A DNA stretch of 64,000 nt from Sphaerobacter thermophilus DSM 20745 (GTDB lineage Bacteria; Chloroflexota; Chloroflexia; Thermomicrobiales; Thermomicrobiaceae), in contig NC_013523.1 in the NCBI RefSeq assembly GCF_000024985.1, positions 2,418,001 to 2,482,000 on the forward strand, in the 5' to 3' direction. Each line of letters starts with the position of its first letter. Position 1 is the stretch's first letter. The position numbers were made by a program, and so were the translations under genes. Under the pieces are notes generated by a model that was given only the letters and a program-made list of their open reading frames with translations, was not told where the DNA came from and searched no databases. Positions 7,510 to 9,810 of the stretch are shown here, one piece after another.

Positions 7510-8208
7510 CCCCCAGGGCTCGGCGGATGATTGGGGTGCAAGCGGTCGGCATGGGCCGGGGGATGGATTTGATGAGTAGCATGGGGCCACCGCGGTGGCA
7601 TGTGCCCGGGAACAGGCGGTGTGAGGGTTCCAATGCGTGGCGCGTGCCCCGGGGCAGGTGTGTGAGGATCCCGGTACCAGGCACGTGCCCGGGGGTAAAC
7701 CCCCGGGCTCACAAGGAAAGCCCGCTGAAGCGGGCTGGGGGCAGCAGGCTCACATCTCGGCGTTGGGTTCGCGCCATTCGGTTAGGGCCCGGGGCTAAAG
7801 CCGCCGGGCTGATAATTATGGAAAGCCCACTGAAGGGGCTTCGATCGCCACGCACAGGCGGATCCGATCCGGCATTCCGCTGGGAATAGCGTCCTTAGCC
7901 CCTTCAGTGGGCTTCGCCTTGTCAGCCCGGGGGTTTACCCCCGGGCACGCGCCACGACGTGGGGATTCTCGCGCCACCCATGCCGTGTGCCGACGCCGGC
8001 GTGGAACCAACCCCGGCGCGCGGCTGGTGCCGCTCGATACCAATGCGGCGGCTCAGGCCGCCGCACTCAAAATAGCCGGCTTCAGCCGGCTTTCGTTGTC
8101 AGCCCGGGGGTAACCCCCCGGGCACGTGCCGCCGCGTGGGCCCCTTCGCGCCACCCGCCTCGGGGCACACGCCACCGGTCGGGGATCCTCACACTACCCG
8201 CCCTCGTG
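7510..8208. repeat. Cluster of hairpin repeats, GGGGGTAAACCCCC / GCGGGCT family
   Basis: This 700-base gap has no credible gene. It holds at least four related units: a CCCGGGGGTAAACCCCCGGGC-type palindrome near 7690 and 7927, a hairpin of the GAAAGCCCGCTGAAGCGGGC type near 7718, the form GGGGCTAAAGCCGCCGGGCT near 7792, and a CGGCGGCTCAGGCCGCCG hairpin near 8048 followed by AGCCGGCTTCAGCCGGCT and GGGGGTAACCCCCC. The same units recur near 16.7, 46.2, 54.0 and 55.3 kb. Confidence 0.7.
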
Positions 8209-8934
8209 CTAGACCGTCGGGAGGGTGACCCCCTCGATCGCGAGCAGGTGCCACTTGATGGCCAGTCCGCCGGTGTAGCCGCCGATCGTCCCGTCGCTGC
8301 GCACCACGCGGTGGCACGGCACGACGATCGGCACCGGGTTGCTGCCGAGCGCATTGCCGACGGCACGGGTGGCCCCCGGCTGGCCGATGATGCGCGCGAT
8401 GTCCCGGTAGGTCACCAACCGGCCGAAGGGGACCTGCGCCGTGGCCTCCAGCACGCGGCGGGTGAAGGGCGACACGGCGGCCAGATCGACCTGCAGGTCG
8501 AAGTGCTGCCGCGCTCCGGCGAAATACTCCTGGAGCTGGGTGGCGTAGGGGCGCACCGCATCCGGATCGTGCCGGGACACCAGCCTCTGCGACTCGGCCC
8601 ACGCCACGATCTCCGCCTCGGTCCCGCCATAGTCCACGCGGCACAGCCCGCGCGGAGACACGGCCACGAGGAGCGGGCCGACCGGGGAGTCGATCCGGTC
8701 ATAGGCCACGATCGGCAGGGTGTCGAGCAGGCTTCCGCCCGGCGGCGCGACGGCGCTCCGCTCGGCCATCTGGTCGAGCAGGCCGGCCAGCGCGCGGCCT
8801 TGCGCCACCTCCCGCGCGCACGCCGCGCAGGTGGCAGTGTGCCGGTCGATCGCCGCGACGGCCTCCGCTCCGAGGTCCCCGGCGACCAGGGCCGGGATGC
8901 GATCGACGACGTCCTTGCAGCTCAGTTCCTGCAT
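8209..8934 (-). CDS. Anti-sigma zinc-finger domain fused to O6-methylguanine-DNA methyltransferase
   Basis: A 241-residue two-domain protein. Residues 1-60 form a ZAS-type anti-sigma domain with Cys6, His32, Cys36 and Cys39 in the classic H-X3-C-X2-C finger. Residues about 75-240 form an Ogt/MGMT alkyltransferase with the DNA-binding helix around TYRDIARIIGQPGATRAVGN and the active-site motif VPCHRV (acceptor Cys207), ending in GGYTGGLAIKWHLLAIEG. There is no membrane segment. The ATG overlaps the end of the preceding ECF sigma gene by 13 bases and has GAGGTGG upstream, so both products are translationally coupled. The alkyltransferase should repair O6-methylguanine by irreversible self-methylation. 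The fusion suggests alkylation-controlled sigma release, analogous to Ada, but this is inference. Confidence 0.88.
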   Translation of the reverse strand: MQELSCKDVVDRIPALVAGDLGAEAVAAIDRHTATCAACAREVAQGRALAGLLDQMAERSAVAPPGGSLLDTLPIVAYDRIDSPVGPLLVAVSPRGLCRVDYGGTEAEIVAWAESQRLVSRHDPDAVRPYATQLQEYFAGARQHFDLQVDLAAVSPFTRRVLEATAQVPFGRLVTYRDIARIIGQPGATRAVGNALGSNPVPIVVPCHRVVRSDGTIGGYTGGLAIKWHLLAIEGVTLPTV

Positions 8935-9470
8935 AGCCCCACCTCTTCGAGTTCCGCCGCGAACTGTGCGCGCAGCTTCCGCACCGCCTGGTAGACGTTC
9001 GCCCTGGCAGCGTCCTCGCTCATCCCGAGGGATTCGGCGATCTCAGCGTAGCCGAGGCCCTGGAAGCGCCGCTGGGTCAGAGCAAGCCGCTGCTTCACCG
9101 GCAGCGCCGCGATCGCCGCCTCGATCCGGTCGAGGAGATCGCGCCGGTCCAGATCCCCCGCCGGGTCGCCGTCGACCGCGACCGGCTGCGCTCGGGTCAA
9201 CGTTGCCGCGGCTCGTTCGCCGGTACGCCGCCGGCGCAGGGCGTTCAGCGTCGTGTTGGTCGCGATCCGGTAGAGCCAGGCGCGGTAGTTCGGCGTGCCC
9301 TGGAGACCGCTGAATGCTCGGAACGCGCGCAGGAAGGTCTCCTGACACAGATCCTGCGCCTCACCGTCATGCCGAACCATCCGGTAGATGTAGGCGTAGA
9401 TCTCCGCCTGATGGCGCGTCACCAGATCCTCGAAGACCGTGCCCCGCGTGCTCCCCGCGCTGTCGGTCAC
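8922..9470 (-). CDS. ECF-type RNA polymerase sigma factor
   Basis: A 182-residue sigma-70 family protein. Region 2 runs over about residues 15-80 (HQAEIYAYIYRMVRHDGEAQ, DLCQETFLRAFRAF, NYRAWLYRIATNTTLNALRRRR). Region 4 covers about 115-168 (ALPVKQRLALTQRRFQGLGY, AEIAESLGMSEDAARANVYQ). The start is GTG at 9470, with GGAAGGGG just upstream. The next gene, overlapping by 13 bases, encodes the cognate zinc-finger anti-sigma domain fused to an alkyltransferase, so this sigma factor probably directs a DNA-alkylation or related stress response. The upstream 100 bases show no convincing sigma-70 promoter. Confidence 0.9.
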   Translation of the reverse strand: MTDSAGSTRGTVFEDLVTRHQAEIYAYIYRMVRHDGEAQDLCQETFLRAFRAFSGLQGTPNYRAWLYRIATNTTLNALRRRRTGERAAATLTRAQPVAVDGDPAGDLDRRDLLDRIEAAIAALPVKQRLALTQRRFQGLGYAEIAESLGMSEDAARANVYQAVRKLRAQFAAELEEVGLCRN

Positions 9471-9573
9471 TCCGTTCGCCCCTTCCGACGGGATCGGCTG
9501 CTCCCTACAGAGTACGACACGCGAGGGGACGGTTTGTGAGATCGCACCCGCCGGCAGCCCGCTTCGCCATTGC

Positions 9574-9693
9574 TGTCATCCTGAACGGAGCCGGGGCGGC
9601 GAGAGCCGCCCCCGGCGACTCCGTCCGAGCCGAAGGATCTCTCGGGTGCGTGGTCGGTCCAACGCGAGATCCTTCGCTTCGCTCAGGATGACA
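9574..9693. repeat. Intergenic palindromic repeat, CCTGAGCG/AAGGATCT family
   Basis: The arms TGTCATCCTGAACGGAGCCG and ATCCTTCGCTTCGCTCAGGA face each other across about 80 bases. It belongs to the same family as 2637-2812 and 30737-30836. The remainder of the gap 9471-9810 shows nothing else. Confidence 0.65.
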
Positions 9694-9810
9694 GACCGCG
9701 GCCGGTTCCGGTGTACCCCGGTAGTTCGTCGAATCCCATCAATCCCGCCCCGGCGTCGTTTCGCTAAGATTGGCTCGAGGGCAGCAGGCGAGGAGGGAGC
9801 TGTCAGGACC

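Follow-up and report, generated by a model that had tools for sequence, protein, structure and literature searches.

The window, a stretch of 64,000 nucleotides of Sphaerobacter thermophilus DSM 20745 (contig NC_013523.1), carries an ECF sigma factor gene followed by a gene whose product joins a predicted zinc anti-sigma domain (ZAS) to an O6-alkylguanine-DNA alkyltransferase (Ogt; Table 1). The sigma ORF matches the Pfam models Sigma70_r2 (E 4.7e-17) and Sigma70_r4_2 (E 2.3e-14), both above the curated cut-offs, as is its match to TIGR02937. The protein is short and has regions 2 and 4 only, as is typical of ECF (group IV) factors, and its nearest solved structures are SigH, SigE and SigW. 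A first-pass annotation of this DNA had reported an overlap of 13 bases between the two genes, with which our ORF coordinates agree, and in relatives the sigma and fusion genes are likewise overlapping or closely spaced. The host assembly consists of two contigs (3.99 Mb) and contains two further places with an Ogt acceptor domain besides the fusion. An inverted-repeat element resembling MITE or REP sequences occupies positions 9573-9694 (CTGTCATCCTGAACGGAGC ... GCTTCGCTCAGGATGACAG, another pair of arms lying inside these) and stops about 30 bp upstream of the predicted sigma promoter, and the region directly downstream of the fusion gene (7680-8156) holds four copies of the 22-nt palindrome GCCCGGGGGTAAACCCCCGGGC together with longer inverted copies.

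Table 1. Features of the sigma-Ogt locus, in window coordinates.
Feature	Position	Strand	Details and basis
ZAS-Ogt fusion gene	8209..8934	-	ATG start, 241 aa; Pfam; 24 orthologues spread over 17 genera
Ogt C-terminal alkyl-acceptor/DNA-binding domain, residues 156-236	8227..8469	-	Pfam PF01035
Codon of acceptor Cys207, within PCHRV	8314..8316	-	Sequence
Ogt N-terminal ribonuclease-like domain, residues 78-151	8482..8703	-	Pfam PF02870
Low-confidence linker between ZAS and Ogt, residues 61-74	8713..8754	-	pLDDT 58 for residues 61-70
Predicted zinc anti-sigma domain (class I ASD/ZAS), residues 1-60	8755..8934	-	zf-HC2
Overlap of sigma and fusion genes, 13 nt	8922..8934	-	ORF coordinates
ECF (group IV) sigma factor gene	8922..9470	-	GTG start, 182 aa; Pfam
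Sigma region 4, residues 114-166	8973..9131	-	Pfam PF08281
Sigma region 2, residues 16-82	9225..9425	-	Pfam PF04542
Predicted autoregulatory ECF promoter, GATCTCACA-N15-TGTCGTA	9512..9543	-	Lies some 40 nt before the start codon of the sigma gene

Several lines of evidence support the assignment of the zinc part of the fusion protein to the class I anti-sigma family. Residues 6-40 match zf-HC2 above the cut-off (E 1.8e-8), the ligands C6, H32, C36 and C39 follow the C-x(n)-H-x3-C-x2-C motif of the family, and the chain is modelled as three helices (residues 6-17, 23-35 and 37-60). The RsrA model TIGR03988 matches residues 5-55 with an E-value of 5.9e-6, which is under its curated cut-off. In profile searches the first matches were solved anti-sigma factors, namely RsiW (E 3.3e-5) followed by DdvA and RslA (E 1.6e-4). 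AlphaFold modelled the ZAS domain alone with a pLDDT of 90, and the 11 best matches of this model in a fold search were all anti-sigma chains (RslA, RsiW, RskA, DdvA, ChrR), with Foldseek E-values above 1 for so short a domain. The whole fusion was modelled with a pLDDT of 92.9 and a pTM of 0.69, and a fold search with it recovered the Ogt half only. The linker between the halves differs in length among homologues. The zinc domain might have been mistaken for the N-domain of Ada, but PF02805 is absent from the protein and from the whole genome.

The Ogt half looks complete. Methyltransf_1N matches residues 78-151 (E 5e-11) and DNA_binding_1 residues 156-236 (E 3.1e-32), the acceptor motif PCHR and the catalytic Tyr, Arg, Asn, His, Lys and Glu are all present, and the closest solved structure is M. 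tuberculosis OGT (4bhb, TM 0.83). It is presumably an active enzyme. Domain searches found no AraC-type helix-turn-helix output domain in the fusion protein.

A search of the order found the ZAS-Ogt fusion in 24 of 61 genomes, belonging to 17 of 33 genera and to two families; a search of plasmids added no further fusion. The first-pass annotation had proposed looking for this domain pair beside ECF genes, and an ECF sigma ORF indeed lies directly upstream, on the same strand, of all 24 fusions. It had also described a complete finger (C6, H32, C36, C39) and a full Ogt domain with acceptor C207; the residues are as claimed, and all five are unchanged in every one of the 24 proteins. So are the residues corresponding to Y114, R128, N137, H146, Y158, K165 and E172 of human MGMT. 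A protein 90% identical to the fusion is encoded on a contig titled Sphaerobacter sp. Confinement of the fusion to one assembly or to Sphaerobacter, or its splitting in close relatives, is thus rejected, since the pair is kept throughout these genomes, and so is an origin by chance or by assembly error, given the single open frame, the two-contig assembly and the independent assemblies showing the same fusion. Pairwise divergence of the sigma factor follows that of the ZAS domain (rho 0.76) more closely than that of the Ogt domain (rho 0.49) among 23 modules, these being raw identities uncorrected for phylogeny. This co-divergence is suggestive, though only that, of sigma binding by the fusion.

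The association of ECF sigma factors with alkyltransferases extends beyond the order. Among the best 27 Ogts from other Chloroflexota with loci examined, 25 directly follow an ECF gene. These 25 carry a short N-terminal extension instead of the zinc finger, which in genome G209 retains a CxxC remnant, and we found neither a zinc-finger ORF near these modules nor a recognisable anti-sigma domain in them. None of the 24 alignable finger-less sigma-linked Ogts has lost the acceptor Cys or a catalytic residue, save for one Glu-to-Asp change. In the tree, the finger-less sigma-linked Ogts and the 24 fusions form one clade (support 99/96), separate from stand-alone Ogts without a sigma neighbour; a single origin of the ZAS-Ogt fusion has weak support in this tree. 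A third form, in which the ECF sigma gene is followed by an Ogt that bears an Ada zinc domain at its C-terminus, occurs on plasmid 2 of Rubrobacter radiotolerans, in Nonomuraea gerenzanensis and in genomes G419 and G427. The zinc finger cannot therefore be the constant part of the family, since relatives across the phylum keep sigma factor and Ogt without it. In the wider family the constant part is the sigma factor with the Ogt, which comes in at least three variants, that with the finger being one. Neighbours of the finger-less modules include HhH-GPD (AlkA-like) genes directly after the Ogt in G031 and G065 and PF09859 damaged-DNA oxygenase (AlkB-like) genes in the same position in G117 and G233. 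Two further observations concern gene content. G427 and G419 each hold two sigma-linked modules (loci L248 and L249), one with ZAS-Ogt and one with an Ogt bearing the C-terminal Ada zinc domain, and YCII/DGPF-type genes follow the finger-less modules at loci L056, L044, L040 and L054, the first of which also has a second, ECF42-like sigma gene after the module.

ECF factors that regulate themselves can usually be recognised by a conserved motif before their own gene. Fusion-type sigma genes are preceded by TCTCAC[AG]-N15-[CG]GT[TC], which a position matrix found at 22 of 23 testable ZAS-type loci (score at least 16); before the sigma gene of G006 it did not find the motif. Over 242 kb of reversed sequence, both strands included, the background maximum of the matrix was 12.1, and the fusion-type matrix recovered two held-out sigma promoters, those of G419 (25.2) and G439 (17.9). 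The window promoter scored 26.1 with the full matrix, and the reversed window at most 7.3. A matrix built from the sites of another family only, without any Sphaerobacter site, still gave it 21.4, the next best site in the 64 kb scoring 10.9. Upstream of finger-less modules, CTCAC[AG]-N16-CGTT was found before the sigma gene in 20 of 25 loci, and the controls gave no instance with the spacer set to any other length in the range 12-19, none in reversed sequence and at most one in each of 1000 shuffles. Because the motif precedes nearly all these sigma genes, that of the window included, the window sigma factor is likely to be autoregulated through the promoter of Table 1. The motif occurs a second time in G008, which is related to Sphaerobacter, between the end of the fusion gene and a gene for an amino-acid permease (L105, position 10265).

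The same motif served to look for target genes. In 26 genomes of one family (f2), RTCTCACA-N15-CGTT occurred at 37 sites against one in the reversed control, and a CGTC form at 11 against one (22 genomes). A stricter form was restricted to this family, the 29 genomes from the rest of the order having none. Away from the sigma genes, some sites precede genes of alkylation repair type: a stand-alone Ada zinc domain (G429), an Ada-like zinc domain (G438), an Ogt followed by an Ada-like zinc domain (G422) and an EamA gene followed by ada (G425). The 18 Ada-type loci of the family that we scanned (59 kb) hold five sites scoring at least 15, against about 0.03 expected at the genome-wide rate; four face the Ada-type gene or operon and one a divergent DinB_2 gene. 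Other sites precede exporters, i.e. EmrB-type MFS genes in G269 and G441, DrrAB in G269 and MMPL in G441, or putative detoxification genes, with a SnoaL-like and YfiT/DinB_2 pair in G432 and in G434, where an EmrB-type MFS gene comes next, and a DinB_2/DUF1706 gene in G420. The fusion operon itself has an EamA transporter as third gene in about 9 of 20 loci of the family. Other sites in relatives lie before glutamine synthetase, PAP2, ABC permease or Na/H exchanger genes, or before no clear gene, and because several precede unrelated or no clear genes, some sites must be false or the regulon mixed. Within the Sphaerobacter genome, two patterns yielded only the sigma promoter and one weaker site before a DHA2/EmrB MFS gene, of background-level significance (C2:95312), which is conserved in G007 and was not seen in G008. 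We do not claim a larger regulon in this genome, a relaxed pattern giving 3 sites against 11 for the reversed control.

These results qualify the claim that the module induces repair genes. In relatives the motif before Ada-domain and ogt genes speaks for it, yet the window genome offers almost no target but the module itself. The idea of a repair regulon stands in so far as repair genes are among the predicted targets, but exporters and detoxification genes are equally prominent. As Ada-domain, ogt, EamA, multidrug-exporter and DinB/thiol-transferase genes carry the motif in relatives and AlkA- and AlkB-like genes follow the Ogt elsewhere, DNA alkylation is most likely what the module answers. 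One might have thought that the fusion replaces Ada, but within the family Ada occurs in 7 of 12 members without the fusion and in 6 of 20 with it (Fisher p = 0.15), and we do not retain this idea.

We consider it moderately probable that the locus is an ECF sigma/anti-sigma module whose anti-sigma factor doubles as a suicide DNA alkyltransferase and is triggered by alkylation. The fusion presumably binds the sigma factor. In an undamaged cell the zinc domain would hold the sigma factor. Irreversible transfer of an alkyl group onto Cys207 would destabilise the protein and part the two Ogt domains, and this separation would loosen or remove the anti-sigma domain and free the sigma factor. The free sigma factor would then transcribe from TCTCACA-N15-CGTT promoters, that of its own operon first. 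The newly made alkyltransferase would repair DNA and, while unalkylated, recapture the sigma factor, so that the response would persist only while damage consumes the fusion protein. In relatives, the common promoter would drive Ada-type, Ogt, exporter and thiol-transferase genes. We favour alkylation of C207 as the signal because an anti-sigma domain, a suicide enzyme and alkylation-related neighbours are here combined; that it frees the sigma factor is an inference. Other alkylguanine-DNA alkyltransferases (AGTs) are reported in a review to be destabilised by alkylation, which disrupts contacts between their two domains, the Tm of the Sulfolobus enzyme falling by 20-35 C (PMC10779285). Such destabilisation would provide the physical basis for the release step. 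One may extend the scheme to a class found across phyla, in which, whether or not a zinc anti-sigma finger is present, the Ogt suicide enzyme itself regulates an ECF sigma factor, as a sigma counterpart of Ada controlling repair and the export of toxins that alkylate DNA. This is a plausible but more tentative proposal.

The chief rival to C207 alkylation as signal places the sensor in the zinc thiolates. It is above all for redox sensing that ZAS proteins are known, and oxidation or electrophile attack on C6, C36 or C39 might release the sigma factor as in RsrA, the Ogt being a passenger that provides co-induced repair. The invariance of all ligands in the 24 fusions fits this scheme, as do the YfiT-type thiol-transferase and exporter genes among the predicted targets, which suit electrophile stress, and cytoplasmic zinc anti-sigma domains are often tied to redox sensing (PMC7406223). 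Yet relatives across the phylum drop the finger and keep the sigma factor and the Ogt, which is the chief argument against it, and the Ada-domain and ogt genes among the predicted targets indicate alkylation. We regard this explanation as unlikely. Somewhat less likely still, the Ogt might be a mere effector, the first gene of the ECF regulon, fused or overlapping by happenstance, with the sigma factor controlled transcriptionally or by an unlinked factor. Autoregulated ECF operons often include targets, and the 25 finger-less modules, with no recognisable anti-sigma domain in them and no zinc-finger ORF nearby, would be accounted for. But the 24 fusions join the Ogt to a domain matching known anti-sigma factors, which makes the fusion protein the regulator at least in those genomes. 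That the zinc domain tethers the alkyltransferase to the sigma factor or RNA polymerase so that genes being transcribed are repaired nearby, with no regulation of sigma, is very improbable: a repair enzyme could be recruited through a domain that binds sigma, the domain pairing being the sole support, but the operon has one dedicated ECF gene with a conserved promoter before it, and the domain matches inhibitory anti-sigma domains.

The alkylation-triggered module proposed here resembles the Ada system of E. coli in that irreversible self-alkylation of an alkyltransferase would be the signal inducing repair genes. The two systems also meet in gene content, as Ada-domain and ogt genes of relatives carry the sigma promoter and the actinobacterial ECF-Ogt modules bear the Ada zinc domain. 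Yet the output in the window would be an ECF sigma factor and not an AraC-type DNA-binding domain; the protein has neither an Ada zinc domain nor a helix-turn-helix, and the Sphaerobacter genome, where no PF02805 match was found anywhere, has no Ada. The layout recalls ChrR-type two-domain ZAS proteins, which also join an N-terminal zinc anti-sigma domain to a separate C-terminal domain and share an operon with an ECF sigma gene. The C-terminal domain of ChrR is a cupin, whereas that of the window protein is an Ogt alkyltransferase. With RslA, RsiW and RsrA the window domain shares the C-H-C-C ligands and three helices, and the first two are among its best structure and profile matches. However, unlike the protein of the window, RslA and RsiW sit in the membrane, and RsrA, a redox sensor, has a single domain. 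As an enzyme the Ogt half resembles M. tuberculosis OGT in having both domains, the PCHRV acceptor motif and all catalytic residues, but its attachment to an anti-sigma domain and its place in an ECF operon set it apart from known Ogt/AGT enzymes. The only fusion partners of AGTs named in a 2023 review are EndoV and a histone-like domain (PMC10779285). The open-access literature that we searched contains no description of an alkyltransferase acting as anti-sigma factor, though a group-level mention in ECF classifications is possible. An anti-sigma domain with an extra C-terminal domain is thus an already known layout, but the use of a suicide repair enzyme as sigma regulator would be new.

If the alkylation-triggered scheme is true, a single-turnover repair enzyme would also be the signal receiver of a sigma factor, lesions would be counted one protein at a time and the system would be reset by new synthesis. 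It would represent a second, independent solution to the problem solved by Ada, show a way in which Chloroflexota that lack Ada might detect alkylation, and link alkylation damage to multidrug export. It would also offer an orthogonal pair of sigma factor and promoter with a chemical trigger, since O6-benzylguanine substrates, as used with the SNAP-tag, might serve. The promoter motif lets the regulon be tested directly. While inspecting relatives we also noticed a small family of proteins, each about 100 aa long, that consist of an Ada-like zinc domain standing alone (L256, 1690-1989; L255, 726-1043; L252, L253, L254 and L257), with a conserved GTLGGHRR.RIYGRLDCP motif, some members of which lie under the ECF promoter.
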